A stretch of DNA of 55,916 nucleotides, from positions 14,179 to 70,094 of the forward strand of contig PEAK01000015.1 in the NCBI GenBank assembly GCA_002753515.1. The letters run 5' to 3'. Positions 1 through 51,051 of the stretch are shown here, in pieces. A model generated the notes under the pieces. The model was not told the DNA's origin and did no database searches. It saw nothing but the letters and a program-made list of their open reading frames with translations. Positions within the stretch are counted from its first letter, which is position 1, and the number at the start of each line of letters is the position of its first letter. Position numbers and translations under genes: made by a program. This DNA is from Magnetococcales bacterium. Its GTDB lineage: Bacteria; Pseudomonadota; Magnetococcia; Magnetococcales; UBA8363.

Positions 1-3000
1 CACCACTTGCTTGTGCCGTATCTGCGGAATCATTCACCGTGATCAGGTTGGCATGAACCGCATCAAACACAAGGGTACCATCTTCATTCAAACTGGCCGA
101 AGATGGCAGGGTATGGACCGGGGCATCGTTGACCGGGTTGACGGTGATGGCGATGGTATTGGTAGCACTTAGAGGGCCACCACCCGTAAAGCCTGAATCA
201 TTGGTAGCGATTGTTACAATATCGGAGCCGTTATAATCGGCGTTCGGGGTATAGATCAATCCCGCCAAAGCCGCATTCACCTGAGCCGCAGTTCCGGCAA
301 TGGTAACGCTTCCCGAACCATTGTTGGTCAGAGTTGCCCCACTGAGGGTGGCCGTTAGCTTCCCATGGGTGACACTCACCGTGGTGGCAAGGCTATCCAC
401 CCCATTCACTTGTAACGTATCGGTGTTGTCATTCACCGTAATCAGGTTGGCATGAAGCGCATCAAACACAAGGGTGTCATCTTCGTTCAAACTGGCCGTA
501 GCCGATTGCAACGTGTTGACCGGGGTATCGTTAACCGCATTAACGCTGATCACAATGGTGTTGGTCGTGGTGAGAGCGCCACCGATGCCCGTATTTCCCA
601 AATCGCTGCTGGCAATGGTCAGGGTATCGGAGCCGTTATAATCGGCATTCGGGGTATAGATCAAACCCGCCAACGCTGCATTCACCTGAGCCGCAGTTCC
701 GGCAATGGTGATGCTTCCCGAACCATTGTTGCTCAGGGTGGCCCCACTGAGGGTGGCCGTCAGCGTCCCATGGGTCACACTCACCGAAGTGGAAAGGGAA
801 TCCACCCCTCCCAATTGTGCAACATCCATCGCATCATTGACTGTGATCAGGTTGGCATGGGCCGCATCGAAAACCAGGGTGGCATCTTCGTTCAGACTGG
901 CCGAAGCCGATTGCAGGGTATTGACCGGGGCATCGTTGACAGCGTTTACCGTGATGGCAATGGTATTGGTCGCGGTGAGAACGCCACCGATGCCCGTATT
1001 TCCCAAATCGTTGGTGGTGATGGTGAGGATATCGGAGCCGTTATAATCGGCGTTCGGGGTATAGATCAATCCCGCCAACGCCGCATTCACCTGAGCCGCA
1101 GTTCCGGCAATGGTAACGCTTCCCGAACCATTGTTGCTCAGTGTGGCCCCACTGAGGGTTGCCATCAGTGTCCCATGGGTGACACTCACCTGGGTGGAAA
1201 GGCTATCCACCCCATTCACTTGTAACGTATCGGTATTGTCATTCACCGTAATCAGGTTGGCATGAAGCGCATCAAACACAAGGGTGCCATCTTCGTTCAA
1301 ACTGGCCGTAGACGATTGCAAGGTGTTGACCGGGGTATCGTTAACCGCATTAACGGTGATCATGATGGTGTTGGTCGTGGTGAGAGCGCCACCCACTCCC
1401 GTATTTCCCAAATCGCTGCTGGCAATGGTCAGGGTGTCGGAGCCTGTAAAGTCGGCATTCGGGGTATAAATCAAACCCGCCAACGCCGCATTCACCTGGG
1501 CAGCCGTACCGGCTATGGTAACACTGGCGGACGAGTTGCTGGTCAGGGTGGCCCCACTGAGGGTGGCCGTCAGCGTCCCATGGGTCACACTCACCGAAGT
1601 GGAAAGGGAATCCACCCCTCCCAACTGTGCAACATCCACCGCATCATTGACTGTGATCAGGTTGGCATGGGCCGCATCGAAAACCAGGGTGGCATCTTCG
1701 TTCAAACTGGCCGTCGCCGCTTGCAGGGTGTTGACCGGGGCATCGTTGACGGCATTGACCGTAATGGCGATGGTGTTGGTCGCGGTGAGAACGCCACCGA
1801 TGCCCGTATTTCCCAAATCGCTGCTGGCAATGGTCAGGGTGTCGGAGCCGTTATAATCGGCGTTCGGGGTATAGATCAAACCTGCCAACGCCGCATTCAC
1901 CTGAGTCGTCGTACCGGCAATGGTGATGCTTCCCGAACCATTGTTGGTCAGACTGGCCCCACTCATGATCGCCGTTAGCGTCCCATGAGTCACACTCACC
2001 GTCGCGGAAAGGCTGTCCACCCCACTTGCTTGTGCCGTATCTACGGCATCATTCACCGTGATCAGGTTGACATGGGCCGCATCGAAAACAAGGGTGTCAT
2101 CTTCGTTCAAACTGGCCGTTGCCGATTGCAGGGAAAGGACCGGGGCATCGTTGACCGGGTTGACGGTGATGGCGATGGTATCGACATCAGCAAGGGCACC
2201 ACCGCCCGTGTTTCCCAAATCGTTGGTGGTGACGGTGAGGGTGTCGGAGCCGTTATACTCGGCGTTCGGGGTATAGATCAATCCCGCCAACGCCGCATTC
2301 ACCTGAGCCGCAGTTCCGGCAATGGTGATGCTTCCTGTACCATTGTTGGTCAGGGTGGCCCCACTGAGGGTAGCCGTTAGCGTCCCATGGGTCACACTCA
2401 CCAAAGTGGAAAGGGAATCAACCCCACCGACTTGTGAGGTATCCGTGGTATCATTGACCGTAATCAGGTTGGTATGGGCCGCATCGAAAACAAGGGTGGC
2501 ATCTTCGTTCAAACTGGCCGTCGCCGCTTGCAGGGTGTTGACCGGGGCATCGTTGACCGGGTTGACGGTGATGGCGATGGTGTTGGACGTGGTGAGGACG
2601 CCACCGATGCCCGTATTTCCCAAATCGCTGCTGGCAATGGTCAGGGTATCGGAGCCGTTATAATCGGCGTTCGGGGTATAGATCAATCCCGCCAACGCTG
2701 CATTCACCTGGGCTGTCGTACCAGCTATGGTGACACTGGCGGAAGTATTGTTGGTCAGGGTGGCCCCACTGATGATCGCTGTCAGCGTCCCATGGGTCAC
2801 ACTCACCGTCGTGGAAAGGCTGTCCACCCCACTCGCTTGTGCCGTATCTGCGGCATCATTTACCGTGATCAGGTTGACATGGGCGGCATCGAATATCTGG
2901 GTGGCATCTTCGTTCAAACTGGCCGTTGCCGATTGCAGGGAAAGGACCGGGGCATCGTTGACCGGGTTGACGGTGATGGCGATGGTATCGATATCGGTCA

Positions 3001-3790
3001 GGACGCCCCCGGAACCGGTATTGCCAAGATCATTTGTGGTTACAGTGAGTGTATCCGCCCCATTATAGTTGGCCGTAGGCGTATAGACCATACCATTCAA
3101 CGCCGCATTCACCTGGGTTGAGGTACCGGCTATGGTGACGCTAGCAGATGTATTATTCGTAATGAGGGCACCACCACCCGTGATGACGGTCAGCGTTCCA
3201 TGGGTAACATTCACAACGGTGGCAAGGTCATCCACCCCACCCACTTGTGAGCTATCGTTAGCGTCACTCACCGAAATCACATTGAAATGGGCGGCGTTGA
3301 AGGTTTGAGTTCCATCTTCGTTAAGGGTAGCCGTGGTCGCTTGCAGGGTGTTGACCGGGGCATCGTTGACGGCGTTTATCGTAATGGCAATGGTATCGAC
3401 ATCGGCAAGGGCACCACCGCCGGTGTTACCCGCATCGTTGGTGGTAATGGAAAGGGTATCGGTACCGTTGTAGTTGGAATTAGGGATGTAAACCATCGCA
3501 TTCAGGGCGGCATTCACCTGAGCTGCCGTACCGAAAATGGTGACACTGCCCGTCCAGTTCGTGTTGACGGTGCCACCCCCGCCCGTAACGGCTCCGATAA
3601 TTCCATGCGATGCGCTGACCACTGTTACAAGGAAATCATTCGATCCGACCTGGGAAGTATCAATAACATCGCTTACCGTAACCAGGTTGGCATTGGCGGC
3701 ATTGAAAGTGATACTGGAATCTTCGTTTAAAGTTGCCGTGACCGACTGTAGGGTATTGACCGGGGCATCGTTGACTGAAGCAACAAAGTT
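1..3790 (-). repeat. Tandem array of about ten 405-bp coding repeats
   Basis: The marker ATCAGGTTGG, or a close variant, recurs near 42, 441, 846, 1251, 1656, 2061, 2463, 2868, 3276 and 3681. The period is 399-408 bp and always a multiple of three. Each unit encodes about 135 residues of one cadherin/VCBS-like domain with HANLITVND, SVTHGTLTA and YNGSDTLTI-like blocks. Adjacent units differ, but alternate units (441-846 with 1251-1656; 846-1251 with 1656-2061) are almost identical in DNA, suggesting recent duplication of a two-unit block or gene conversion. Confidence 0.9.
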
Positions 3791-6700
3791 TGTAAGGGTA
3801 TTCAATCCCGGGCCAATGGCTGAAGAACCACCCGGACTGGAGGTATCGACGGTCACCCGGGTTTCCGTGCCATTGGTGGTGGAAAAGGATCCCGCGTAGG
3901 TGTCATCAAGCGGACGAATTTGTACGTTGACCGTTGATCCCGAAAAATTGGCCACCGGGACAAAACGCAACAGGGTGGTGGAAGACAACGCCAAGGCGTT
4001 GGCGTTATCCGCAACCACACCGACATCAAACCAATCGGTACCACCGTTTGACGAATATTGCCAACTTCCCGCCGTGAGGGCATTGCTGGCGTTGGCGACA
4101 ATGGCCACTCCCTTCAACGAGGAACCGGCATCAATATCCGAAAACAGAGAGGTCATCAGGTTGGCGACGGTATTCCCCGGAGGATTGAACGTGTCCTCGG
4201 AAATCTGCGCCAATGCAGGATTGCCCAACATGCTCGGGGCATTATTGGTAGCCGAGATGGTCGTACCCAGGGTATTGGTTGTGGCGGCAATGGGGGTGGA
4301 ACCACCATTGACACTGGCATCCTGGAGGGACCGCGTCTGGCCAGCATTGGTTGTGGAATATCCGGCGGCGTAGGTCGTATCCACAGCCCGAACCGTGAGT
4401 GGGGTAGGGGTGCCGGTGTATCCCGAGACTTGAACAAAACGAACGGAACTGTTTTTTCCCACCATCAAGGCCGAAGTATCTGTCACCGCGCCAACGTTGT
4501 ACCAGTTGATGCCATCGGAGGAATATTGCCAAGCCCCTTCGTTAACTGAATCGGCGGTATTGCCAACAATCGCCAAACCGCCAAACGACAAATTCCAATC
4601 CACATCGACGAACAAACCCGAGAAAAGGGCGTTGACCGTGGCACCGCTCGGCATGGCAACCCCGCCGACCGAGGCCAATGTAGCATTTCCTGAAAAACTG
4701 GGGGCATCGTTGACTGGAGTAACATCAATCGTGATGGTTTTGGCGACCGGATCAAGGTTGACCCCTCCGTTGGCGGTACCACCGTCATCCTCCACCTTGA
4801 AGGTAAAGGATGTGTAGGCTGACCAGGCGTCGTTGGGTGCCGGGGTGAAAACCAACTTGTTTCCCGTGATATCGGCCACCGTGATAAAACTGCCGATGGT
4901 TACGGCAACACCATTATTGGTCAATGCCCCGAATATGGGCAGCGTGGTGATTTTAACGCGATTGAGGGCATTGGCCGGGGTATCGCTGACATCGGTGAAA
5001 CCAAAATCTGAAGCCGCAAAAGTATGAAAGCCGTCTTCCAGAATGGTGACCGTTTTGTTGGTACCCGAGGGGGCATCATTAACCGAATTGATGGTAACGC
5101 CAATGGTGTTCGTGCTGTTCGAGTAAGGGGAGCGACTATCGGGTATGGAGGTATCCAACGTGACCCGGGTGGCGGTGGAAAATCCCCCGGCGTACGTGTT
5201 ATCCAACCCCCGGATACTCAGTGTCGGTGGGGTACCGTTATAGTTGGTGACTGAAGAAAAACGCACCAGACTGGCCGCAGAAACCGCAAGGGCGTTGGCA
5301 TTGTCGCCCACATTGCCCACATCATACCAGTGTGCGCCGCCATCCGGGGAATATTGCCAGGCTCCCTGGGTAACGGCATTGGCCGTATTCGCGACAATGG
5401 CAACCCCACCCAGGGATGAGCCCGGATCAATGTCAGAAAATTGGCTGGAGAACAAAGAAGTTATGGTTGCCGTTGTCGGTGCGGTATCTTCGTTGAATGC
5501 GCTGAGTGTGGCATCACCCGTCAGACTGGGGGTGTTATTGGGTGGGTTGATAAACGTGCCAAGGGTAACGGGAGTATTGGCAATCGCACTACTGCCACCA
5601 TGGGTGGAAGTATCCACTGTCACCCGCGATTCGCCGGCGTTAGTCGTGGAATATCCACCCATGTAGGTGTTATCCAACCCGCGTACCGACAAAGGGGTGG
5701 GCACACCATTGAAGGAGAGAACCGGGAGAAATCGGACATGTGTCCCGGGGGAAAGGGCCAGGGCTGTGGCACCATCCGCCACACTGCCGACATCGGCCCA
5801 ATGGATACCATCAGAAGTATATTGCCATACCCCTTCCGTGGTGGCATTGGCAGTATTATCGACAATGGCCAAGCCCGCAAAGGATGAACCCAGATCAACA
5901 TCCGAATATAAATTGACAACGGCACTGTTGAACAACGTACTGAGGCTTGCACCACCAGGAGCAGCCATGCCAGCGTTAATCGAGGCCAGGGTGGCATTGC
6001 CAGTCAGTACCGGGGCATCGTTGACGGCGGTCACAGTAATGGTCGCCGTATCGGTGGCTGTACTGAAGGCCGTTGTTGCACCCGTGCTGGTAGACGCATC
6101 GACCTTGTTACCAGCGCTGCCTGAAGTCTGATCCCAGGCCCGATAGGTCACAGTGGCGCTGTCGGCATTTTGGCCATCCGGGACGAAACGGATGCTGTCG
6201 CTGCTCTGCAACAACAAGGCGGAGGTATTGGTCACCACACCCATGTTCGTCCAACCACCGCCGGTATCATATTGCCAGGTGCCGTTACTGGCGTTTAAAC
6301 CGGTGATGGCAATCCCCTGAACCGCACCGCTATCCACATCGGTAACCGATGCGCCGAGAAAAGAGGCGACGGTTTGGCCAGCGTTGGTCGTTTGATCCTC
6401 AGTGATCGTCGTCAAGGCTGGATTGGCAGCGGTCAGAACCGGGGCATCGTTGACGGCAGTCACGGTGATGGTCGCCGTATCGGTCGCCATACTGAAGGCC
6501 GTTGTTGCACCCGTGTTGGTGAACGCATCGACCTTGTTACCAGTGCTGCTCGAAGTCTGATCCCAGGCCCGATAGGTCACAGTGGCGCTATCGGCATTAT
6601 TGCCATCAGGAACGAAACGAATGCTGTCGCTACTGCGCAACAACAAAGCGGAGGTATTGGTCACCACACCCATGTTCGTCCAACCACCGCCGGTATCATA

Positions 6701-9700
6701 TTGCCAGGTGCCGTTACTGGCGTTTAAACCGGTGATGGCAATCCCCTGAACCGCACCGCTATCCACATCGGTAACCGATGCGCCGAGAAAAGAGGCGACG
6801 GTTTGGCCAGCGTTGGTCGTTTGATCCTCGGTGATCGTCGTCAAGGTAGGACTGGCAGCAGTCAAAACCGGGGCATCGTTGACGCTGGTAACATCGATGG
6901 TCATGGTTCTCGGGGTGGGATCCAGATCAATGCCACCGTTCAATATCCCGCCATCATCCTGAACCTGAAAGGTGAACGATGTATAACCAGCTCCGTTGGC
7001 ATTAGCAACAGGGGTGAAAATGAGTTTACCGCCAATGATTTCCGCCTGGGTGATCCAATCGCCGGCGTTGACAGCGGCACCGTTATTCGTCAACGTTCCG
7101 GCAGCGGGCAATGTGGTAATCTGAACCGTCAAGAAGCTGTTTGCCGGATTATCATTGGAATCGCTGAAACCAAAATCGGCAGAGGTAAAGGTGTAGGGCG
7201 TATCTTCCAGGGTGGTGATGGTCGTATTGGTGCCCGATGGGGCATCGTTGACCGCCGTAATGCTGATGGACGAAGTCACACCGGTACTCGACTGACTCCC
7301 ATCCTGAACTTTCCAGGTTATCGTCCGCGAAGCTGAGGTCGCAGTAGGGGCGTGGCTGGTGCTGGAGAAGGTGACACTCCGTAACGCGGTTTGGTACTGG
7401 GCCAGGGTTGCCGTGCCGGTCAGAGTCAAAACCCCCGTGGCGGCATTGAAAGATCCAGAAATGCCATTTTGCGTTGCCACGTCCAACACATCCCCTGCCG
7501 TCAAGCCGGAGGAAATGGTAACTGTCGCCCCGGTGGATTGGGTATCGTCAACATCACTGACCGTGATGGTATTGTCGATGGCGGCCGCTACGGCTCGTTC
7601 CACGTAGGCCATGGAACCACCAGCGGTTGCAACGGGTAATTGATCTTCAAAAGCACCAATGTCAACCAAACCGTTGGCGACACGGGCATAGCCAGTGCCA
7701 CGTTGGTCGATGGCGGATTGTCGCGTGTCATAAACGGCCAATTGCGCCGCTGTCCATCGGTCCTTGGCGACACTGTTGGCTCCAAGTGCCATGGTCCATG
7801 TTGTCCCGCCATTGTTTTGCAAGGCACCCAGGCTGGGATCATTACCGCTATCGTTGGAAGTGCTGGTGTTAATGCTGGCACCGGTGAGATCCTTGATCAA
7901 ACAATAGTTCGCGTTGATGACACCGCCGGCACTTGACGTATTGTCGATATCTCTCTCAACCCCACCCACTGTATTATTTGCAATAATATCATTGGCGAGG
8001 TTAACTGTTGCGCTGGCATTCAGGGAGATACCACCTGTCTGTGATGTGCCCGTATTGTTTGCAATGGTACTGTTTGTTATCGTGACGGTACTGGATGCAA
8101 TACGGATACCGCCTACGGTGCTACCGCTATTGCCGTAGAAAGTACAATTGTCGATCGTTCCAGATCCACTGTTAATATTTACCCCACCTCCTGCCGCTGC
8201 ACTGCTATTATATGAAATAGTACTATCGTAAAGTAAAAGAGTTCCTCCAGAAACGACTCCAACCCCACCACCAGCGCCAGTTGTTGTCGAATTACTATCG
8301 ATTGTGCATCGTTCGATAGTAGTGGTTCCAGCGCTGATATAGACTCCAGCATAGTTGTATGCAGAGTTATTGCTGATAGTGCTATCATTGATGGTTGTCG
8401 TTGCAAACATACTGGTTATTCCACCACCGGAAGCACCAGCTCCATTTGTTGCAGAATTTGATGAAATAGTGCAATTATTGATCGTCAAAACGACTGAGGC
8501 ACCCGCTGCGACAATAGCACCACCCGAACCGCCTGATCCCGTGGCACTGTTGCCAGTTAATATGTCCCGGTTCAATGTGATGTGCGTGCCATTATTGGCG
8601 AGAATGGCACCTGCGCTTGAGGCGGAACAATTGGAAATGGTGCTATCGTTCAGGATCAGATAGCCACCGTTCGTACCTAGCCAAATAGCGGAACCGGTCA
8701 GTGCTGTTTGCGCAAAATTATTTATATTAATGCTTTGCAATGTCAACGTTTTCGTAGACGAACCCAAGGTAACTGAAAAAGCCTTATAATTACCACCATT
8801 TCCTTCAATTGTTATATCGGCAACAGAATCGTTATTGGTGTCACCACTGATGGTTAGATTGTTCGCATCATTAATCGTTATGGTGGAGGACAAGTTGATA
8901 TTTCCAGACAAACCGTTGGTAAAAACGATATCATCATCTCCAGCATTGGCATTGGCACTGCTGATCGCCTGTCTGAGACTGCCCGCACCGGAATCGTTCA
9001 GGTTTGTAACTGTATAAGTAGCCAGTGTGTCATGATAATTTTGCCCGGAAGTGCTATTGATGATCACGGGGGTCACCACCGAACCCACATGATCTTCGAG
9101 GATCCAATCCCCTCCTTTGGCGGCATCACCCGTACGGTCATCCGAGGCGGCGACATGGGTCCGGGTGGCTTCGGCCAAGCGGGCGACAAACTCCTTGCCC
9201 ACCGTCCCCTGTGCCACATCACATCCATAAAGCAACAGATCCGCATGGGCCGTTAAACCCTGTGACCATTCTTTGAGGACGTTTTGCCGGGAGTCCAACG
9301 TGCTGTTATCCAGAACTGCGGAACCCAGCTTGATGGAACCTTCCGAACCATGAGAAATCACATGAAGCGCTGAAAACTCCCCCGTATGTTCGGCCATGAA
9401 AGCGGCGACTTGAGAAAACCCATCCCGGTTGGGATCCAGCAGCAATACTTCCGCTTGGCGGGTGAGGTCACCAATCAAGGTGGGGATATCAGTAACCGTG
9501 GTATCGATCACCACCAATTCCCGATTCGCACCGGTGGTAATACCAGTGTTGGCGAGGTCGACCCGGGCATAGGGGGAGACGACGACCTCGGCACCGGCAC
9601 TTTTCGCCAATTTGTCGATAAACGTCGGTATTTTGGTATCGCTCCCAGCATCATAGATTTGAATGCTGCCACCATTGTTAAGGGATTTACCCCAGCTTTG

Positions 9701-10252
9701 TAACTCTTTTTGATAGGTGTCGATGGTTTTATCCGACAGGGTGGTACCACCGATCTCAACGTGATCCTTGTTGAGGTGAGATACGATTTGGATGGCATCA
9801 AAATGGGTGTTAAGCTTGTCCAGGATGGTGGCCATGTGTTGCACCCCATCCTGTTGGGCATCCAAAACCACGACTTGCAGGTTGGGGGAGGCTTCTATTA
9901 AAAAATGTTTCAGGTCGGGCACCCGGGAATCAACAAACAAGATCGTCCGTTGCGGGTTGGTTTCGGGAAGGGGACGCGGATCACCCAACGCTTGCGCCAG
10001 ATTGTCCACGATGTCGTGGTGCGGATCAGGGGCATGGTGCAGTGGATCGGTACTATCGTGCATCGCGTCATGGCTGTCGCGACCGAAAGGATCATCAGGT
10101 TGAGACAAAAGTCCCACCCCTTCAAACATCAAGCGCTGTTCCAGAGGGAGAAACTGGGAAAATGCAGCGGCGCGTTGTTGTGCATGCGACCGCACCTTGG
10201 GGTCTGGCGGAAAAAACCAACCAAAAACATTTTCCAACCAGTAATTGGCCAT
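1..10252 (-). CDS. Giant LEPR/DUF4347 beta-helix and cadherin-like repeat protein (partial, runs off the left edge)
   Basis: One minus-strand frame is open from ATG at 10252 to the window edge, giving at least 3417 residues; the C-terminus is missing. GGGGA lies 7 bases before the ATG, and the upstream in-frame stop at about 10305 leaves no other ATG, GTG or TTG start. Residues 37-45 read LEQRLMFEG, the LEPR-like N-terminal motif of very large secreted proteins. Two DUF4347 domains follow (about 9.95-9.1 kb); the second has SHG and YGC, the first keeps the His but lacks the Cys. A segment with NLNDSGAGSLRQAI and many N/S/T-rich rungs (about 9.05-7.6 kb) looks like a right-handed beta-helix. 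From 7.6 kb to the edge come cadherin/VCBS-like domains, each ending in a VNDAP-type motif. Likely a secreted or surface adhesin. No classical signal peptide is visible, so export is probably non-Sec-standard. Substrate and ligand are unknown. Confidence 0.85.
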   Translation of the reverse strand, partial: MANYWLENVFGWFFPPDPKVRSHAQQRAAAFSQFLPLEQRLMFEGVGLLSQPDDPFGRDSHDAMHDSTDPLHHAPDPHHDIVDNLAQALGDPRPLPETNPQRTILFVDSRVPDLKHFLIEASPNLQVVVLDAQQDGVQHMATILDKLNTHFDAIQIVSHLNKDHVEIGGTTLSDKTIDTYQKELQSWGKSLNNGGSIQIYDAGSDTKIPTFIDKLAKSAGAEVVVSPYARVDLANTGITTGANRELVVIDTTVTDIPTLIGDLTRQAEVLLLDPNRDGFSQVAAFMAEHTGEFSALHVISHGSEGSIKLGSAVLDNSTLDSRQNVLKEWSQGLTAHADLLLYGCDVAQGTVGKEFVARLAEATRTHVAASDDRTGDAAKGGDWILEDHVGSVVTPVIINSTSGQNYHDTLATYTVTNLNDSGAGSLRQAISSANANAGDDDIVFTNGLSGNINLSSTITINDANNLTISGDTNNDSVADITIEGNGGNYKAFSVTLGSSTKTLTLQSININNFAQTALTGSAIWLGTNGGYLILNDSTISNCSASSAGAILANNGTHITLNRDILTGNSATGSGGSGGAIVAAGASVVLTINNCTISSNSATNGAGASGGGITSMFATTTINDSTISNNSAYNYAGVYISAGTTTIERCTIDSNSTTTGAGGGVGVVSGGTLLLYDSTISYNSSAAAGGGVNINSGSGTIDNCTFYGNSGSTVGGIRIASSTVTITNSTIANNTGTSQTGGISLNASATVNLANDIIANNTVGGVERDIDNTSSAGGVINANYCLIKDLTGASINTSTSNDSGNDPSLGALQNNGGTTWTMALGANSVAKDRWTAAQLAVYDTRQSAIDQRGTGYARVANGLVDIGAFEDQLPVATAGGSMAYVERAVAAAIDNTITVSDVDDTQSTGATVTISSGLTAGDVLDVATQNGISGSFNAATGVLTLTGTATLAQYQTALRSVTFSSTSHAPTATSASRTITWKVQDGSQSSTGVTSSISITAVNDAPSGTNTTITTLEDTPYTFTSADFGFSDSNDNPANSFLTVQITTLPAAGTLTNNGAAVNAGDWITQAEIIGGKLIFTPVANANGAGYTSFTFQVQDDGGILNGGIDLDPTPRTMTIDVTSVNDAPVLTAASPTLTTITEDQTTNAGQTVASFLGASVTDVDSGAVQGIAITGLNASNGTWQYDTGGGWTNMGVVTNTSALLLRSSDSIRFVPDGNNADSATVTYRAWDQTSSSTGNKVDAFTNTGATTAFSMATDTATITVTAVNDAPVLTAANPALTTITEDQTTNAGQTVASFLGASVTDVDSGAVQGIAITGLNASNGTWQYDTGGGWTNMGVVTNTSALLLQSSDSIRFVPDGQNADSATVTYRAWDQTSGSAGNKVDASTSTGATTAFSTATDTATITVTAVNDAPVLTGNATLASINAGMAAPGGASLSTLFNSAVVNLYSDVDLGSSFAGLAIVDNTANATTEGVWQYTSDGIHWADVGSVADGATALALSPGTHVRFLPVLSFNGVPTPLSVRGLDNTYMGGYSTTNAGESRVTVDTSTHGGSSAIANTPVTLGTFINPPNNTPSLTGDATLSAFNEDTAPTTATITSLFSSQFSDIDPGSSLGGVAIVANTANAVTQGAWQYSPDGGAHWYDVGNVGDNANALAVSAASLVRFSSVTNYNGTPPTLSIRGLDNTYAGGFSTATRVTLDTSIPDSRSPYSNSTNTIGVTINSVNDAPSGTNKTVTILEDGFHTFAASDFGFTDVSDTPANALNRVKITTLPIFGALTNNGVAVTIGSFITVADITGNKLVFTPAPNDAWSAYTSFTFKVEDDGGTANGGVNLDPVAKTITIDVTPVNDAPSFSGNATLASVGGVAMPSGATVNALFSGLFVDVDWNLSFGGLAIVGNTADSVNEGAWQYSSDGINWYNVGAVTDTSALMVGKNSSVRFVQVSGYTGTPTPLTVRAVDTTYAAGYSTTNAGQTRSLQDASVNGGSTPIAATTNTLGTTISATNNAPSMLGNPALAQISEDTFNPPGNTVANLMTSLFSDIDAGSSLKGVAIVANASNALTAGSWQYSSNGGTDWFDVGVVADNANALALSSTTLLRFVPVANFSGSTVNVQIRPLDDTYAGSFSTTNGTETRVTVDTSSPGGSSAIGPGLNTLTNFVASVNDAPVNTLQSVTATLNEDSSITFNAANANLVTVSDVIDTSQVGSNDFLVTVVSASHGIIGAVTGGGGTVNTNWTGSVTIFGTAAQVNAALNAMVYIPNSNYNGTDTLSITTNDAGNTGGGALADVDTIAITINAVNDAPVNTLQATTATLNEDGTQTFNAAHFNVISVSDANDSSQVGGVDDLATVVNVTHGTLTVITGGGALITNNTSASVTIAGTSTQVNAALNGMVYTPTANYNGADTLTVTTNDLGNTGSGGVLTDIDTIAITVNPVNDAPVLSLQSATASLNEDATQIFDAAHVNLITVNDAADTAQASGVDSLSTTVSVTHGTLTAIISGATLTNNTSASVTIAGTTAQVNAALAGLIYTPNADYNGSDTLTIASSDLGNTGIGGVLTTSNTIAITVNPVNDAPVNTLQAATASLNEDATLVFDAAHTNLITVNDTTDTSQVGGVDSLSTLVSVTHGTLTATLSGATLTNNGTGSITIAGTAAQVNAALAGLIYTPNAEYNGSDTLTVTTNDLGNTGGGALADVDTIAITVNPVNDAPVLSLQSATASLNEDDTLVFDAAHVNLITVNDAVDTAQASGVDSLSATVSVTHGTLTAIMSGASLTNNGSGSITIAGTTTQVNAALAGLIYTPNADYNGSDTLTIASSDLGNTGIGGVLTATNTIAITVNAVNDAPVNTLQAATASLNEDATLVFDAAHANLITVNDAVDVAQLGGVDSLSTSVSVTHGTLTATLSGATLTSNSSASVTIAGTAAQVNAALAGLIYTPNADFTGSDTLTIASSDLGNTGVGGALTTTNTIMITVNAVNDTPVNTLQSSTASLNEDGTLVFDALHANLITVNDNTDTLQVNGVDSLSTQVSVTHGTLMATLSGATLSNNGSGSVTIAGTAAQVNAALAGLIYTPNADYNGSDILTITTNDLGNTGIGGVLTATNTIAITVNAVNDAPVNTLQSASASLNEDATLVFDAAHANLITVNDAMDVAQLGGVDSLSTSVSVTHGTLTATLSGATLSNNGSGSITIAGTAAQVNAALAGLIYTPNADYNGSDTLTIASSDLGNTGIGGALTTTNTIVISVNAVNDTPVNTLQSATASLNEDDTLVFDALHANLITVNDNTDTLQVNGVDSLATTVSVTHGKLTATLSGATLTNNGSGSVTIAGTAAQVNAALAGLIYTPNADYNGSDIVTIATNDSGFTGGGPLSATNTIAITVNPVNDAPVHTLPSSASLNEDGTLVFDAVHANLITVNDSADTAQASG
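3790..6020 (-). repeat. Second coding repeat class with WQYSSNGG motif (four copies)
   Basis: Four diverged copies of a block encoding GSWQYSSNGGTDWFDVG-type sequence are centred near 4.05, 4.53, 5.35 and 5.82 kb. Each is followed by an ALALS...LLRFVP segment and a TYAGS/TETRVT-like strand. Spacing is irregular (about 470-820 bp) because a different cadherin-like domain sits between the second and third copies. This is part of the giant protein, in the same frame. Confidence 0.65.
6020..6876 (-). repeat. Near-identical 429-bp direct repeat in the giant gene
   Basis: Two consecutive units, about 6020-6447 and 6449-6876, differ at only scattered positions over 429 bp (143 codons). Marker GGTGATGGCAATCCCCTGAA occurs at 6302 and 6731. 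Each unit encodes one domain with SFLGASVTDVDSG, GTWQYDTGGGW and TVTYRAWDQ segments. Such high identity marks a recent in-frame duplication. Confidence 0.85.
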
Positions 10253-43232: not shown

Positions 43233-43281
43233 CTGTGTTGCTCCGGGTTTTCTAAAAACGGAAAGCTTGGGATGTCCCGAC

Positions 43282-45393
43282 TCAAAACCCGCCCCTGTCC
43301 AAAGCCATGTCCTGTTCCAAAATGGAACTGCGCTGGCGAAACGCCAATCGTTCCGCCCGCCATTGCACATGACGCAGCACCAAACCGCTGACCCAGGGAT
43401 CCCAGGAAGGCAGGTGGTCATGTTGCCATTGCCACACCTTTTTAAGCCAGGGAGCCAGAAAACGCCGGATCAAATCTTCATCCATGGAAAAAAAACGTTG
43501 GACAGATCCCGGATCCCCCTGCCGAGCCGAACGTCCGAGCAATTGCCGATCAATGCGACTGAAATCGTTGGACTCGCCGATGATGACGTGCAAACCGCCC
43601 CGATCACGCACGCTCGGGTGCAGGGCGATGTCGGTTCCGCGTCCCGCCATGTTGGTGGCAATGGTCAAGGCCCCCGGCTGTCCCGCTCGGGCGACGATGG
43701 CACTCTCCTGATCGTGGTTGACGGCATGCAATATCTGAATATCAACCCGGGGCAGAACCGCACGCATATGGCGATAGAGTTCTTCGCTGGCACCAACACT
43801 GCGCATGCCGATGAGTATCGCCCGACCCGCCACGATCAGGCTCAGGGCACTTTTGGCAATGGCGGTATACTTTTCTATTTGATTGCGGCAAACAACGACC
43901 TGCCAATGGGCACGCCGTACCGGTTTGTGGGTGGGAATCTTCACGGTCAACAAACGATACACCCGGCCAAACTCATGGCGTGCCTCCTCTGCCGTACCGG
44001 TCATGCCACCCAGGCGGATGAAAAGGCGAAAAAACCGCTGAAAACTTAACCGTGCCGATACTTCACTCGGCGGCGACAAAGGCAAATTCTGGCTGGCTTC
44101 CAATATTTGCTGCATCCCCAGCGACAAGGTGTGTTGCCGCGCCAAACGTCCGGTCAATTCGTCCACCAATACCACCTTGTCGTCATCCACAACATAGTGC
44201 TGATCCCGTATCAAAAACCGGGTGGCATAAAGGGCCATTTCCACCAATTCCCGCGCCCGATCCCGATGCCGCCAGAAAGGTGCCAGGTCCGCTGCCAATG
44301 CCACCAGACGCGCCTGTCCCGCCAGGGTCAGGGAGACGTGGCGCAAAGCGCGTTGCAAGGTGTAGTCCTCCCCCTCATGAAGCTGGTTGGCCAAATGAAC
44401 CGCATCCCGAGCCGCCTGATCCAAAAAATCATCGGGGTGTTGGCTGGAAATAATGAGCGGTGTCACCGCTTCGTCGATCAGCACGCTATCCGCCTCATCG
44501 ACGATCACCTGGACCATGCCCCGCATCACCACCCCTTCCAGTTCCCCTTGGCCACCACGGCTACGTGCCGCCTCCAAAGCCAAGCGGGTGCGGGAAGCTC
44601 CCTTTCCCAACGCCAACCGATCACGCAAATAATCTCCCAATAATTCTTTTGCTGTGCTGTAAACGATATCGTGACCATAAGCGGCAGCCCGTATCTGCGG
44701 TGCCATCTCCCCGTCAACACTCGCCGCCGACACCTGACAAAAACCAAACAAACGTTGCCCCAACTCCGCATCCCGCTTGGCCAGATAATCGTTGGCCGTC
44801 ACCACGTGACACGGTTTGCCTCGCCAAGCGGCGACAATGGCCGCCATAGCCGCCGTAATCGTCTTACCCTCACCCGTGGCCATTTCCGCCATGCGCCCTT
44901 CGAGCAATGCCAGGGCACCGATAACCTGTTCCAAATGCGGGGTGAAACCGTAGACCCGCTCCACCGCCAACACCACCCCTGCCAAGCCTCGATGTTGCTC
45001 CTGCGTCGCCAGGGTGCCGCCTCCTCCCCCTGGACCTTCACGTTCCATGCGGCAGGCGGCCGCCAGTTGCCGCAAATGCCCCTGCAACGCCTCATCATTC
45101 AAGGATCGGTGCTTGTCGGCCAAGGAAAGAATGATTCGAGAACGCAGTCGTAATTGTCTGAGCGGGCGATGCCAATGGCTCAATAGCGCCGCCAAACGAT
45201 ACCCCATGTGATCAAGCCACGATATTTTCGGATCGGGGCGATGGGCCGCGAGTACCGCCAAACGATCACCCGGCAGGAGACCTGCCCCCCCAGCAGCCGC
45301 GTCATGCCACAAGGATGGAATCGCAACCCGTTGCCCTTCGGCCATCAGATGCTTTCGCCGGGTCAGGATACGCTGTAAAGGGGTGTTGTTCAC
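43282..45393 (-). CDS. SecA-like motor ATPase of the export operon
   Basis: The product is 703 residues from GTG 45393, whose GTGA overlaps the M50 gene stop; an in-frame start at 45480 would overlap that gene by 91 bp. SecA motor features: MATGEGKT (Walker A), VHVVTANDYLAKRDAE-type motif (here HVVTANDYLAKRDAE), VIVDEADSVLIDEA (Walker B, DEAD), GMTGTAEE, ATNMAGRGTDI and LLGRSARQGDPG. It lacks the long C-terminal linker and the zinc-binding SecB tail of housekeeping SecA. It is therefore an accessory SecA, likely driving a dedicated substrate with the adaptor/channel genes of this operon. Last gene of the operon. Confidence 0.85.
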   Translation of the reverse strand: MNNTPLQRILTRRKHLMAEGQRVAIPSLWHDAAAGGAGLLPGDRLAVLAAHRPDPKISWLDHMGYRLAALLSHWHRPLRQLRLRSRIILSLADKHRSLNDEALQGHLRQLAAACRMEREGPGGGGGTLATQEQHRGLAGVVLAVERVYGFTPHLEQVIGALALLEGRMAEMATGEGKTITAAMAAIVAAWRGKPCHVVTANDYLAKRDAELGQRLFGFCQVSAASVDGEMAPQIRAAAYGHDIVYSTAKELLGDYLRDRLALGKGASRTRLALEAARSRGGQGELEGVVMRGMVQVIVDEADSVLIDEAVTPLIISSQHPDDFLDQAARDAVHLANQLHEGEDYTLQRALRHVSLTLAGQARLVALAADLAPFWRHRDRARELVEMALYATRFLIRDQHYVVDDDKVVLVDELTGRLARQHTLSLGMQQILEASQNLPLSPPSEVSARLSFQRFFRLFIRLGGMTGTAEEARHEFGRVYRLLTVKIPTHKPVRRAHWQVVVCRNQIEKYTAIAKSALSLIVAGRAILIGMRSVGASEELYRHMRAVLPRVDIQILHAVNHDQESAIVARAGQPGALTIATNMAGRGTDIALHPSVRDRGGLHVIIGESNDFSRIDRQLLGRSARQGDPGSVQRFFSMDEDLIRRFLAPWLKKVWQWQHDHLPSWDPWVSGLVLRHVQWRAERLAFRQRSSILEQDMALDRGGF

Positions 45394-47159
45394 AGGCTGT
45401 ACCGGCGTTGAAAAAATTGGAAAATCGCCCGTTCCACCTGAACCACCAGGGGACGGGACGGAAGACGAACCTTGATCCAACCCGAACGCTCGCTACGTGG
45501 CGCGTAGGTAAACCGGTGTTCGGGATCGGGACTGAATTCGGCCCGCAACAAAAAAAAGGGTTCGGCACTTTGTTTGCCGGAAGGGTCGTTGGTCTTGATA
45601 GCCGTTTTGCCTCCGGCCAGCGGGCTCAAAGCCGCTGACGGCAAGGTGCTTTGCGAATGCGGAATCAGGTTGAGCCGGGTCACGGGATAAATCGTCGCAC
45701 GTTCGCCCTCGATGCGCACCTCACTTCCCACCCCTTGCAATTCCGACAATGCCAACGCCGCTTCCTGATGAATGACACCCAGAAAAACATGGCTGCGATC
45801 ATCGACCACCCGTCCCAGTTCCGCACCACGCGCAACCCAACTGCTACGCCAAAACGGTATCTCCGCCGTCACCCAATAACCCGCATGCGGGGCATGGTGT
45901 TTCAAAGAGATCCGTTGTCGTTCCAGGGATTGGCGCACACTCTCCAGGGAGTTCAAGCGTTCGCGGATTGGATCCAGGTCCACGCCGCCCTCCACCAGGG
46001 CTTTCTGCTCCTGGACCAAAGCCTGCATTCGTTGTGCCTCGACACTTTCCAGTTCACCATCGATTTCTGGATTGACCAGTTCAACCAACAATTCGCCAGC
46101 ACTGACCCAACGCCCCGAATCCACCAGAACCCGTTGCACGATACCACCAATTTCAGTATGGATTGGCGTATTGTGTTCGGCATTCACCACCCCGTCCAAC
46201 ACCCGACTGTCGGGCATGGGGACGAAACAAACAAAAGCCGCTACCAAGGCCATGGCCGTACCGCCGCCACGCAGCAGCCCCTTTTGTTGATGCACGAACA
46301 ACGGATTCTTAAACGGTGCCAACGCTGCCTTGAGTGGATAAAAAAAGGAGGTGATCGTCATGGCAATGGCCACGATCAACCCGACACCAAAATATTGATC
46401 GCTGACAAACAGGATGATGCCAAACATGACCAATACACGGTAACAGTTGGAACCCATAAAAAAAGCCACCAACAGTACCCGTTGCTTAAAGCTCCCACCC
46501 TCCTCTTTGTCGTCCATTTTTTTCAATACATGACGATTCCACACCCCCATGAATGCTTTTTTGGCCTGCTCATGCAAATTGGGTATTTCAATCAAGTCGG
46601 ATAAAATATAATAACCGTCAAAACGCATCAGGGGATTGATGTTAAAGATGATGGTGTGAACACCAATGGCAAAGATCAGGTTATAAGCCAATTCGTTTGC
46701 CGTGCCCGGTGGCGTATAGGCCCAGACGATTGTGGCCAGCGAACCCAGCACCAGGTCCATCAGCATGCCTGCTGCATCCACCAATGCCCGATGCCAACGG
46801 TTGCGAAAGGTCCAACCCGAAGAAAGATCAACATACGGCAACGGCGTTAGGAGCAACAGCATCACCCCCATGGTGCGCACATCGCCGCCGAAATGTTTGC
46901 AAGTGGTCGCGTGTGCCATCTCGTGCAGGATATGCGACAGAAAAATGGCAACATAGAGCAACAACAAATTATTCAGTTGCAAGATATCTTTGGCTTGCGC
47001 CACCAAGCGCGGTCCCCCCAGGGCCACTTCGATCCCCCCCCAAACGACGATTCCGGTCGCCAGCAGCCAAAGCGGCCAACCCCATGCCTTCTCAATGGTT
47101 GCCTGATGCCGGTTCAGCCAACGGTTGGGATCCCACAGGGGAATTTTAAGAAAAAACAA
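45390..47159 (-). CDS. M50 site-2-type metalloprotease fused to an HlyD-like adaptor (3' part of a frameshifted gene)
   Basis: The frame gives 589 residues. Six to eight membrane helices carry the zinc protease motifs HEMAH (about residue 83) and NPLMRFDG (about 175), the site-2 protease signature. From about residue 320 a single-pass, coiled-coil/lipoyl-like HlyD region follows (VQRVLVDSGRWVSAGELL). Family members of this kind usually have an N-terminal PqqD-like domain on the same chain; here it lies in the overlapping upstream ORF in another frame. A -1 shift on the A10 tract (47194-47185) joins them. It would sit in the inner membrane between the SecA-like motor and the TolC-like channel. 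Confidence 0.85.
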   Translation of the reverse strand: MFFLKIPLWDPNRWLNRHQATIEKAWGWPLWLLATGIVVWGGIEVALGGPRLVAQAKDILQLNNLLLLYVAIFLSHILHEMAHATTCKHFGGDVRTMGVMLLLLTPLPYVDLSSGWTFRNRWHRALVDAAGMLMDLVLGSLATIVWAYTPPGTANELAYNLIFAIGVHTIIFNINPLMRFDGYYILSDLIEIPNLHEQAKKAFMGVWNRHVLKKMDDKEEGGSFKQRVLLVAFFMGSNCYRVLVMFGIILFVSDQYFGVGLIVAIAMTITSFFYPLKAALAPFKNPLFVHQQKGLLRGGGTAMALVAAFVCFVPMPDSRVLDGVVNAEHNTPIHTEIGGIVQRVLVDSGRWVSAGELLVELVNPEIDGELESVEAQRMQALVQEQKALVEGGVDLDPIRERLNSLESVRQSLERQRISLKHHAPHAGYWVTAEIPFWRSSWVARGAELGRVVDDRSHVFLGVIHQEAALALSELQGVGSEVRIEGERATIYPVTRLNLIPHSQSTLPSAALSPLAGGKTAIKTNDPSGKQSAEPFFLLRAEFSPDPEHRFTYAPRSERSGWIKVRLPSRPLVVQVERAIFQFFQRRYSL

Positions 47160-47545
47160 CTCGGAAAGACGTGCCGCCAGAGGCTTTTTTTTTTGTGCTG
47201 CGCCCGTTCCAATATTTTATTCTCGTCCACCCCTCCGGCGATGGTGACCAGATTGGCCCGATACAAGGCGATCACCAATTCAAACACCTCTTCCTGACCC
47301 GGGGTCTCTTCAGGGGCGTCATCCACCGCCTGACGCCATAGTTCTCCGATGGTCCGGGTCACATGGAGCTTCATGAGAAAGCGGTAGGTCACCGCATTGA
47401 CGCGAAAAAAACCGGCATGCGCTCGTTCGTGCAACACATACCACGGTTCTCCACGATAATGGTGCAGGCGAATCGCCACCCCGGGGCGTAAACTCAGGCG
47501 CAAATCGGCTATGCGATACCAATTATCGGAAAACGTCCGGCTCAT
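47114..47545 (-). CDS. PqqD-like N-terminal domain of the M50/HlyD protein (frameshifted upstream ORF)
   Basis: The frame gives 143 residues. Residues 1-115 (NWYRIADLRLSLRPGVAIR, YRGEPWYVLHERAHAGFFR, VTYRFLMKL) match the PqqD/peptide-chaperone-like head found on M50-HlyD export proteins. After the A10 tract the frame reads an unrelated tail (KKKSLWRHVF...) that overlaps the M50 ORF. ATG 47545 overlaps the HlyD gene stop as ATGA, so translation is coupled. Without a shift the domain would be released as a short protein. Confidence 0.75.
   Translation of the reverse strand: MSRTFSDNWYRIADLRLSLRPGVAIRLHHYRGEPWYVLHERAHAGFFRVNAVTYRFLMKLHVTRTIGELWRQAVDDAPEETPGQEEVFELVIALYRANLVTIAGGVDENKILERAQHKKKSLWRHVFPSCFFLKFPCGIPTVG
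47185..47194 (-). other. A10 slippery tract joining the PqqD-like and M50 frames
   Basis: In mRNA sense the site is CAC-A10-GCC. In the zero frame it reads H-K-K-K-S; a -1 shift reads K-K-K-K-P and continues without interruption into the M50 ORF (PLAARLSELFFLKIP). Ten consecutive A are prone both to ribosomal -1 slippage and to RNA polymerase slippage; a sequencing error is the alternative. Confidence 0.7.
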
Positions 47546-48411
47546 GGGACGGGGTCCGCCGGCAATTCCAGGCTTGCGGGAATCCCGGGGCGCATGCCGG
47601 GGTCGGGATGAATCATCTCAATCTTGATCTCCCTGAGGCCGCTGGAGGATTCCACCACCGGAGAGACAAACAACACCTTGCCTTGCACCTTTGTTTGTTG
47701 GCTGCCCACCTTCAGAACCACCTGATCACCGGCGTGGAATTGTTCGCTGCGATCCAGGGGGAGGTGAACAACGAACAAAATGCGTCTGAGGTCACACAGG
47801 CGTAAAACGGTTTCGTTGGCCTGAATGCTTTCGCCCAATTGTCTGACCAGTTTGACGACGATGCCCCGTGTCGGTGCTAGCAGGGTGCGCCGCTCCAGAT
47901 TTTCCTTGGCGGTCAGATAATCAAGGCGTTCCACCTCTTCAGCGGTTGTAATACGTGTCACTTCCGCTTCGGCCAGAGAAAGGGCCAATTGTCGGTTTTC
48001 CAACTCTTCGCGGCTGATCCCTTGGGACGAATTGAATATTCGTTGTGCCGCCTGCACCTGTTTTTCCGCCGTGGTTCGGCGGGCCTGAGCCGCTTTCAAC
48101 TCACCCTTGCCCTGCCATTGGATACGCCGCCGTTCCACATCGTACTCTTCCGCCAAGCGATCCAGGGACAGCAGCACCGCCCCCTTTTCGACCACGGCAC
48201 CCTCTTCCACCGCAACCGACGCAATGCGTCCAGCCACCGGCAATGCCAGGTTCAAGTCAGCATCGCAACGGGTCACCCCACGAATCTGCCCGCCTGCTTC
48301 CCCCTTCGCCGCCGCGCCTTCCGTTTTGGCCAAGGCACTCCCCCACCCTCCAAAAACCCACGATCCAGCCAAAACAGCTACGATCGTGAACCCAGTATGC
48401 TTCCAGGCCAC
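47542..48411 (-). CDS. HlyD-family periplasmic adaptor
   Basis: The product is 289 residues from GTG 48411, five bases after the TolC-like stop, with TTGGAG upstream; the longer frame to 48531 has no signal sequence. A signal peptide or anchor (about 1-28, ending SALA) is followed by a lipoyl half (LPVAGRIASVAVEEGAVVEKG), a coiled-coil hairpin (about 90-170) and the second lipoyl half (LLAPTRGIVVKLV). It would bridge the inner-membrane part and the outer-membrane channel. Confidence 0.88.
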   Translation of the reverse strand: MAWKHTGFTIVAVLAGSWVFGGWGSALAKTEGAAAKGEAGGQIRGVTRCDADLNLALPVAGRIASVAVEEGAVVEKGAVLLSLDRLAEEYDVERRRIQWQGKGELKAAQARRTTAEKQVQAAQRIFNSSQGISREELENRQLALSLAEAEVTRITTAEEVERLDYLTAKENLERRTLLAPTRGIVVKLVRQLGESIQANETVLRLCDLRRILFVVHLPLDRSEQFHAGDQVVLKVGSQQTKVQGKVLFVSPVVESSSGLREIKIEMIHPDPGMRPGIPASLELPADPVP

Positions 48412-48415
48412 GGCA

Positions 48416-50662
48416 CTACTCCAATCCCAAACGTTGCAGCAAGCTGCCATCCACCTGCGAGGAGAGGTAACTGGCCCGATTGGCATGGGCCACGGCATCC
48501 GATAAAGCCTCCCGGGCCAACAACAAATCAAGCCTTTGTTTTAACACATCCAAACCCGATCGATTCCCTTCCGCAACCAAGCCTTCGGTCACTTGCAGTA
48601 GGTTTTGTTGCGCATCGACGATTTCTTTCTGCTTGGCCAACCGCTGCATTGCCTTGTCAAGGACATAGCGGCTTGAATTAACCTCATTGGCCACCCGCTG
48701 ACGCAATGCGCTTAGGGTTAATTCGGTTTGTTCCTTGCGCAACAATTCCGATTTAAATTCACTCTTTTTCTTTTCGTCACCAAACAAACCCATCTTGAAA
48801 ACCACACCCACCATCCAACTGTGATAGGATTCGTCGCTCGTCATATATTGCAACGGCCGGTTGTTGGCCGACAATTCATCCCGGCCCGCCCGAACCTGGA
48901 ACGCCAAATCCGGCAAGGTTTGATCGTGGGCCTGAATCACCTTCTCTTCGCTCATCTCAATCATCAGGGATTTCACCCGGGTCTCCGGGCGGCGTTCGAT
49001 CACGCGATCCAAAAACGCCTCATCGTCCACGCGCCCCTCTTTGTCAACGCCGCTGGCGTCCGGGAACTCCAGTTGACCCACTGGCAACAGACGGTTGGCT
49101 GCCAGTTTGGCTCCCCTGGCCGGTTCGGCGGCACTGACGTAGGAGCGCATAGTTTTCAGTTGCTCCTCCCTGTCTTCCTGGGCTTCTGACAGTTGCGACT
49201 TGCGCAAGGCCAACGAGGAACGGGCTTTCGTAACCTCCGGCTCCGGCTGCAAGCCCGCAGCATTGAGCTTACTGACCTCCAGTTCAATTTTTTCTGCAAC
49301 CTCCATGGCTTCCTGGCGCAACCCCACCTGGGTGATCGCCCTCTGAACGGCAATAAAGCTGTTCAGCCCCTCCATGAGACGTTGCATCATCACCTGACGC
49401 AAGGTCTGCTTGGCCACATCCTGTTCTATCTTGGCCAAAATAATACCCGCCCGGGTCGGACCGGGGCCGGCACCACGCAACAAAGGCTGGTTAATATTGA
49501 AACCAACATATCCCTTATATTCCGGGGAGGGACTATTGGCCAGGGCCTGCAAACTGTTGGTGGTTTCAGTCAGATTATAGGACAATTCCGCCGTTGCCCC
49601 GGTAATCACTTTGGAACTCACCCCCAGTTTCGCCCGGTTTTCTGCAGAATCGTAGACGTTGCCCGGGCGCTGCCCCCGTTGCAAGGCATCCGCCGCCGTG
49701 TTGAGCACATGGCTCCCTTCCCGTTCGGTGGACAGCGAAACCACAGGCTCGAATATCGCTTCGGCACCACGGACCCCCTCCTGGGCAATGTTTTCTTCCA
49801 GGCGTTGCGCACGAATCATCTCATCCGCCTTGGCCAGCAGGTTGACATACTCCTTGAGGGTAATTCCCTGGGCTTCGGGATCGGCAATGGAAGGAGATCG
49901 TTTTACAGGTGCTGAGGTGGACTTGGTGGCGGCAGATTGTTTCACAGATTCCGGGGTGGACTTGGCTTCGGTACCCTCATGCCGCTCCATCGGTACCGAT
50001 TTGACCTTGGGTTTGCCGGGGGGAAGCGGCATACTCGGAACCTCTTCCACCGGCAGTGCAAAATCGATTGCTTCCCCAGGATGCGCCGGAACAGGTAAGT
50101 CGATGGTCGATTCCGTAATATTGACTGCTACGGGTATCCCGGCAGGGGGTGCCACTTGATCAACTCGGGCCACCCGCAACCGCGGGGATATCACGGGTGC
50201 TGGAGGCGAAACCGGCGCTTCCGCTCTCACGGCCTCCTGCCTGACTTCCCGTGACCCTGGCACAGAAACAGGGGCCGGGACGGGGATCGGATCACTCACT
50301 GCCTGCCGCTCGTTGGAGTGGACAAGGGGTGTGGGAATTGAAAAAGCCGCTGCGGGAAAAATAATGGGCGAGTCCACCGTTGCGGCGGAAGGCGACACAT
50401 CGTCCTGATCATCAAACATATCCGTCGAACGACGGGCCACACCCTTCGTACCCGTCCGGGGTGCCATCTTGAGATGTTCCAGGGCGTCGGTTACTGGATA
50501 AATAGTAACCAGGGAACGGTTTGGATCAATCCGGGTACCCGATGCAGAAACGACCGGGGCATCAGCGGCGAAAACCGGGGATCCGCCGTCCACAACCCAC
50601 ACACCCAGGGGCGAACACGCCAGCCCCAGCAGTGTCGCCATGATCATTTTTCCGTTTGCCAT
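48416..50662 (-). CDS. TolC-like outer-membrane efflux protein with long proline-rich N-terminal extension
   Basis: The product is 748 residues from ATG 50662, which opens a good signal peptide (MATLLGLACSPLGV then VFAADAP). A TTG start at 50725 overlaps the DUF3467 stop but puts 21 polar residues before it. Residues about 35-260 are proline-, valine- and serine-rich with no recognised domain. The C-terminal 480 residues form two TolC/OEP repeats (GYVGFNINQPLLRGAGP; GVVFKMGLFGDEKKKSEF) with long coiled coils. It should form the outer-membrane and periplasmic tunnel. Standard TolC proteins are about 450 residues, so the extension is the oddity. Confidence 0.88.
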   Translation of the reverse strand: MANGKMIMATLLGLACSPLGVWVVDGGSPVFAADAPVVSASGTRIDPNRSLVTIYPVTDALEHLKMAPRTGTKGVARRSTDMFDDQDDVSPSAATVDSPIIFPAAAFSIPTPLVHSNERQAVSDPIPVPAPVSVPGSREVRQEAVRAEAPVSPPAPVISPRLRVARVDQVAPPAGIPVAVNITESTIDLPVPAHPGEAIDFALPVEEVPSMPLPPGKPKVKSVPMERHEGTEAKSTPESVKQSAATKSTSAPVKRSPSIADPEAQGITLKEYVNLLAKADEMIRAQRLEENIAQEGVRGAEAIFEPVVSLSTEREGSHVLNTAADALQRGQRPGNVYDSAENRAKLGVSSKVITGATAELSYNLTETTNSLQALANSPSPEYKGYVGFNINQPLLRGAGPGPTRAGIILAKIEQDVAKQTLRQVMMQRLMEGLNSFIAVQRAITQVGLRQEAMEVAEKIELEVSKLNAAGLQPEPEVTKARSSLALRKSQLSEAQEDREEQLKTMRSYVSAAEPARGAKLAANRLLPVGQLEFPDASGVDKEGRVDDEAFLDRVIERRPETRVKSLMIEMSEEKVIQAHDQTLPDLAFQVRAGRDELSANNRPLQYMTSDESYHSWMVGVVFKMGLFGDEKKKSEFKSELLRKEQTELTLSALRQRVANEVNSSRYVLDKAMQRLAKQKEIVDAQQNLLQVTEGLVAEGNRSGLDVLKQRLDLLLAREALSDAVAHANRASYLSSQVDGSLLQRLGLE

Positions 50663-50721
50663 TATCACGGACCAGTTATGATAGTATTCTTCGGACGTTT
50701 TTGTTTGAGACAATGGCTGGT

Positions 50722-51051
50722 TCAAACGATCTTACGGACCTTGGTTTCATACTCCTGTAAAACGCGCTGCAAGGTTTCCACCAAATTTTTGGCAACCGAA
50801 GGTGTCATGATGATACGGGAGGAGAGTTGGATGATGATCTCTTCGCTCACCGTACCCCAGGTCATGTTGGTACCGAACAACAACGTCACCTCATCCTTGC
50901 TCATGCCAACGTTGGCCACGTTGGAATAATGGGTGATCATTTGCCGATCGTCAAACCGAACTCGGACGCTACGACCATCAGCATCCGTGGGTGCCTGAAT
51001 GGCGTCCGATCCCGTTACCGTTTGCGGCATCTCATTCTTGTTTTCCGCCAT
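50722..51051 (-). CDS. DUF3467 protein, first gene of the export operon
   Basis: The product is 109 residues. VRFDDRQMITHYSNVANV, EVTLLFGTNMTW, EEIIIQLSSRIIMTP and an ending LQEYE are the DUF3467 signature; function is unknown, small soluble beta-rich fold expected. ATG 51051 follows ACAGGAG with 11-base spacing, the best SD in the operon, so the promoter probably lies in 51052-51236. Its stop is overlapped by the in-frame TTG of the TolC-like gene. Confidence 0.85.
   Translation of the reverse strand: MAENKNEMPQTVTGSDAIQAPTDADGRSVRVRFDDRQMITHYSNVANVGMSKDEVTLLFGTNMTWGTVSEEIIIQLSSRIIMTPSVAKNLVETLQRVLQEYETKVRKIV

Follow-up and report, generated by a model that had tools for sequence, protein, structure and literature searches.

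At the left end of the DNA stretch analysed here (the window: 55,916 nt of a Magnetococcales genome, contig C30:14179-70094), a gene codes for a giant protein without a Sec signal peptide, which raises the question of how this protein would leave the cell. Little is settled about the export of proteins of 5,000-19,000 residues by bacteria, and in automatic annotation the cassettes considered below are dispersed under efflux, peptidase and SecA names. The source genome comprises 4.33 Mb in 134 contigs and is 97% complete. The first-pass annotation had pointed to a SecA/M50/HlyD/TolC operon, found 33 kb from the giant gene in the same window. Our analysis leads elsewhere: the window protein is probably a secreted giant adhesin-like protein, with a dedicated SecA-less machine as exporter and a gene cluster on contig C106 as its partner.

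The giant protein and its terminal motifs

The open reading frame (2-10252, minus strand) has its ATG start at 10252 and is open at the left edge of the window. The whole gene (C30:10208-24481, minus strand) codes for a product of 4,741 aa, beginning with MANYW. Its features in the window are:

1..10252 (-): LEPR/DUF4347 giant gene; the window covers the first 3,417 of 4,741 aa, and 3,971 bases more lie beyond the window start (to C30:10208)
10118..10144 (-): LEQRLMFEG motif (aa 37-45), which we propose as the export signal at the N-terminus
9557..9955 (-): first of the two DUF4347-like domains (about aa 100-232), in which SHG and YGC are missing
9023..9517 (-): second DUF4347 domain (aa 246-410) with a caspase-like fold; its conserved Cys344 is encoded at 9221-9223
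2..7285 (-): region of cadherin-like / tandem-95 repeats, starting at about aa 990

Pfam found DUF4347 (PF14252) in two copies (249.6 bits; cut-off 24.6), and the protein also carries Cadherin_4, tandem-95 repeats and a choice-of-anchor Q domain. Its first 70 aa have no hydrophobic core of a signal peptide (maximum Kyte-Doolittle value 0.7 over 15 aa). The absence of a classical signal peptide and the LEQRLMFEG motif at residues 37-45, both noticed in the first-pass annotation, were confirmed. RTX nonapeptides were absent from all 4,741 aa. Three other DUF4347 giants are found in the source genome, plus a 19,427-aa LEPR-8K frame on contig C115. CHASE2 sensor genes flank the giant on both sides (window 15508-17739; L006:6482-10117).

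The motif belongs to the same N-terminal family as that of LEPR-8K (NF012209), a model for very large proteins. At the 17-bit cut-off of this model the window giant was not among the matches of the source genome, though the L, E and R of its motif are conserved; at a loose cut-off, the model found four giants of the source genome, but the window variant LEQRLMFEG was not one of its hits. Among shuffles of the giant's first 150 aa, only 0.035% contained a match to the pattern LExRxxF[DE], and L37, E38 and R40 were invariant across 25 aligned relatives. All 53 DUF4347 proteins with complete N-termini at M50-HlyD loci had the motif, 49 by a set regular expression and 4 as close variants (LEKRLMFD, LERRLMFD, LELRFIFD, LEPRIAFD). 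It was missing from all 22 DUF4347 proteins with a readable N-terminus (27 frames read) from genomes without M50-HlyD. Therefore, the feature linked to the exporter is LExRxxF and not DUF4347, which was rejected as an export signal.

The C-terminus of the giant (GKRSFTAQLRQFGRVGFHESS) bears a second motif, GKxxFxxQL, typical of giants beside SecA-less exporters (type b, below). The pattern was defined after the sequences had been seen and its counts are descriptive: 48 of 79 giants at SecA-less loci, 1 of 19 at SecA loci and 6 of 80 other long ORFs.

The second DUF4347 domain (aa 242-397) matched the structure of Tce1 (Z 12.8, 146 aligned, 2.8 Å) and, with Z 8.7, SAVED-CHAT. It thereby shares the fold of the clan CD peptidases (Tce1, CHAT, caspases), and it has their catalytic His-Cys pair; here, however, the predicted peptidase is an N-terminal domain of giant proteins. 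Cys344 was invariant in 25 rows, and SHG, absent from a few relatives, is kept in the giant's second copy. The caspase-like fold of the model, together with the invariant cysteine, suggests self-processing. Another LEPR giant of the source genome (L010:8432-15208, contig C99) combines an N-terminal DUF4347 with a C-terminal Peptidase_C14 caspase domain, and similar C-termini occur at L085, L089, L090, L095 and L108.

Co-occurrence with M50-HlyD genes and exporter types

The first-pass annotation had suggested that LEPR giants may be cargo of M50-HlyD machines, to be checked by whether they follow and adjoin the corresponding genes in other genomes instead of sitting beside type I ABC genes. 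In 299 genomes of the phylum, searched for M50-HlyD, DUF4347, LEPR-8K and the type I ABC protein LssB, exporter and giant (DUF4347 or LEPR-8K) occurred together in 80, the exporter only in 5, the giant only in 17 and neither in 197 (p=6e-49). Outside the order of the source organism, the respective numbers were 37, 4, 14 and 196 (p=4e-28). Three of the 17 giant-only exceptions are same-order genomes with a completeness of 57-76%. LssB, used as a control, co-occurred weakly (odds ratio 4.3, versus 185 for M50-HlyD).

Giants and M50-HlyD genes were also neighbours more often than expected from random placement. Of 78 LEPR genes, 34 had an M50-HlyD gene no more than 15 kb away (2.3 expected), as had 37 of 130 DUF4347 genes (3.35 expected). 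The exporter search was limited to four scored candidates per genome, and not every giant had such a neighbour. None of 55 giants checked had an LssB-type ABC gene within 15 kb. Profile and adjacency both bear out the general part of the earlier proposal, and that LEPR giants are cargo of M50-HlyD machines is strongly supported. Shared lifestyle or horizontal islands might bring the two together without such a relation, both being accessory genes of large genomes, but the operon-like order, the match of motif to exporter and the pairing of paralogues make this highly improbable.

Gene neighbourhoods sorted into three exporter types, and in the M50-HlyD tree each of these was on one side of a branch with 99-100% bootstrap. 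Type b has the order giant-TolC-HlyD-GAF/HlyD-M50HlyD (PqqD/M50/HlyD), without SecA. Type a1, represented in the source genome by contig C90, has the order giant-DUF3467-GAF/HlyD-M50HlyD-SecA-HlyD-ShlB-type pore, and type a2, the window operon, DUF3467-TolC-HlyD-M50HlyD-SecA, with GAF/HlyD. At loci of the SecA types the giants were longer, with a median of 9,835 versus 2,496 aa in hand-compiled lists (p=9e-9). The type b cassettes contained neither a conserved ABC gene nor a recognisable ATPase. Type b can do without the SecA paralogue, for each of nine genomes that have type b but lack a SecA-type cluster holds only one SecA, of housekeeping size.

A scan of named genome contigs with type b M50-HlyD gave 80 loci, from Pseudomonas, Chromobacterium, Phytobacter, Paraburkholderia, Methylomonas, Variovorax, Marinomonas, Pelagibacteraceae, Nitrospira and others. 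The cassette was kept at most of them, its order being conserved in Pseudomonadota and Nitrospirota, and a giant was often directly upstream or downstream.

In the predicted M50-HlyD model (pLDDT 89), an N-terminal unit with the element order beta-beta-beta-alpha-alpha-alpha, as would be expected for a PqqD-like domain, is joined to a multi-helix membrane part and a MacA-like adaptor. In the fold search of the full model all matches came from the HlyD half, which fits MacA/MexA/EmrA adaptors (VIA Z 13-17). H192, E193 and H196 (HExxH) and D294 were invariant in 53 sequences. The PqqD profile matched the N-terminal unit in 13 of 14 members of the a1 clade (best 9.5e-9) and, weakly, one of 15 in the SecA-less clade (E 0.008), whose proteins are homologous to those of the a1 clade end to end.

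The C90 cluster (L047:234-9377), with SecA-like and M50-HlyD genes, adjoins a 7,672-aa LEPR/DUF4347 giant. Homology of its SecA-like paralogue to housekeeping SecA ends near aa 575 of 695. In place of TolC, its outer-membrane gene codes for a two-partner pore of ShlB/FhaC type, which carries POTRA_2 domains. The GAF gene is not a plain one but has an HlyD half as well. At L072 (G186), an a1-clade M50-HlyD gene lies beside a 2,850-aa LEPR/DUF4347 giant with no adjoining SecA, possibly through loss of the SecA gene.

Probable partner of the window giant

Two clusters come into question as the exporter of the window giant. The window operon, at 43.3-51.1 kb, is composed of:

43282..45480 (-): SecA-like ATPase, a2-type exporter (Pfam SecA_DEAD, P-loop_SecA, SecA_PP_bind); read here as not the window giant's partner
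45390..47159 (-): M50 protease-HlyD fusion, a2-type exporter
47114..47545 (-): separate 143-aa gene that matches the N-terminal (PqqD-like) portion of longer M50-HlyD proteins; it can be aligned to a2 relatives of full length but has no Pfam match by itself
47542..48531 (-): HlyD-type periplasmic adaptor
48416..50725 (-): TolC-type outer-membrane factor with a long N-terminal extension
50722..51051 (-): DUF3467 gene, first in the SecA block

The SecA-less cluster on contig C106 is composed of:

3224-5386: M50-HlyD
5367-6812: GAF-HlyD
6728-8065: HlyD
12295-14760: TolC

Eight related genomes of the genus, as draft assemblies, were compared. Four of them, namely the source genome, G161, G053 and G145, have the tandem-DUF4347 N-terminus of the giant, and precisely these four also have the C106-type M50-HlyD. 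Giant and exporter identities run parallel across the three congeners (92/95, 50/70 and 43/50%, respectively). In G053, the giant's relative lies about 4 kb from a C106-type cluster, and the two kinds of intervening genes are those flanking C106 in the source genome. In G145, it is oriented divergently to TolC-HlyD-GAF/HlyD, to which it is physically linked. In the drafts of the source genome and G161, giant and cluster are on separate contigs. The C-terminal motif, the presence pattern in the genus and the linkage in two congeners all point to the C106 cluster as partner, and a pairing by contig proximity alone was rejected.

The earlier pairing of the giant with the window operon was accordingly not supported, and we consider it very unlikely. 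The two share a contig, 33 kb apart, and the operon belongs to the same general exporter family; however, no such operon was seen in G053 (97% complete), which keeps the giant's relative, and by its C-terminal motif the giant belongs with the SecA-less clade. Moreover, orthologous operons in G097 and G034 directly follow giants with a different C-terminus, and the operon's own GAF/HlyD gene has its counterpart beside another giant.

This other giant is the LEPR-8K frame on C115 (L050, L052), which lies outside the window; the frame is open over 19,427 aa (about 58 kb), has a LEPR-8K N-terminus and precedes GAF/HlyD. The congener G161 has a block that shares 95.9% identity with the SecA block (43274-51174), and there GAF/HlyD comes next. 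The counterpart gene in the source genome (95% identical) is located just downstream of the C115 giant and is preceded by a 28-bp stretch resembling the SecA end, so the block appears to have been displaced from between the two. By sequence comparison, the simplest reading is that the window operon and the C115 GAF/HlyD gene were one ancestral operon, split later or separated by an assembly artefact. In both cases the likelier cargo of the SecA operon, and its probable one, is the C115 giant; its C-terminus (ADDTLEQPLMP) resembles that of the G097 giant (ADDTLDAPMLP). A TIR/SEFIR-domain gene lies just downstream of the SecA block (41428-42228).

Proposed export route and known systems

The machine of the window giant would consist of TolC, HlyD, GAF-like/HlyD and a multi-spanning PqqD-like/M50 (site-2) protease/HlyD protein, without ABC or SecA proteins. 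PqqD-like domains are known from RiPP systems as binders of leader peptides. By analogy, we propose that the PqqD-like domain of the exporter reads the N-terminal LExRxxF[DE], perhaps together with the C-terminal GKxxFxxQL, at the inner membrane. M50 may then cleave close to a stretch rich in Ala, which in most relatives comes after the LEPR motif, and the chain would be threaded via stacked adaptors into TolC. The caspase-like DUF4347 domain may trim the N-terminus or detach the chain. These steps of recognition, cleavage and transport are what we infer from the parts.

How the chain would be driven across the inner membrane leaves room for two other explanations. The housekeeping Sec translocon could carry it, with the M50-HlyD/TolC set responsible for recognition and later steps only. 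The SecA-less cassette has no ATPase of its own, type b genomes keep one housekeeping SecA, and sibling clades have a SecA paralogue, so this reading deserves some weight; yet it is unlikely, as the giant is without a Sec signal peptide and the LEPR motif is unlike a Sec signal. That the giant leaves by ordinary type I (ABC) secretion, the M50-HlyD genes travelling along for processing or anchoring only, seems quite unlikely to us. HlyD and TolC are type I parts, and ABC exporters below the cut-off in the source genome could serve, but an HlyB/LssB ABC protein above the cut-off is absent from that genome, and HlyD adaptor and TolC-type channel are present in the cassettes, each having its own. 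The giants checked lacked a type I ABC neighbour, and the protein lacks the RTX nonapeptides that type I substrates carry in their C-terminal part (PMC5018854).

The likeness to type I systems (HlyB-HlyD-TolC; LssB-LapA type) extends to the giant adhesin-like cargo without signal peptide, the HlyD adaptors and the TolC-type factor; in contrast, the proposed SecA-less machine has a PqqD-M50-HlyD inner-membrane part in place of an ABC protein in the cassette, and its cargo an N-terminal motif. MacAB/AcrAB/EmrAB pumps resemble it in the HlyD part, but the cassette has no ABC, RND or MFS transporter. The curated models closest to the M50 part (up to 2.7e-50) are the Daptide and LiaK-YydH RiPP-maturation proteases (NF041824, NF058609); the matches were far under the cut-offs of these models, and here M50 is fused to HlyD and tied to giants, not small peptides. 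The LEPR-8K model names a motif only, whereas the link to an exporter comes from this analysis.

The putative M50-HlyD exporter is apparently undescribed: a search of open-access papers gave no account of a LEPR/M50-HlyD export system. We tentatively propose a separate giant-secretion class, a reading that we hold slightly short of even, in which a LEPR leader is read RiPP-like by a PqqD-like domain on an M50/HlyD hybrid, with proteolytic release. One clade would work without a dedicated ATPase on cargo mostly of about 1,000-5,500 aa; its sisters, whose giants have about 4,000-19,000 aa, would add a SecA paralogue, with TolC or a ShlB-type pore.

If right, environmental and plant-associated Pseudomonadota and Nitrospirota would possess an ABC-free class of protein export. 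Motif and C-terminus would allow cargo to be assigned to exporter by sequence alone, and SecA-less and SecA-containing siblings would offer a natural comparison of what the SecA motor contributes for very long chains. CHASE2 genes, which flank the window giant, are also found near type b clusters at L084, L085, L089, L090 and L095 and are possible regulators.
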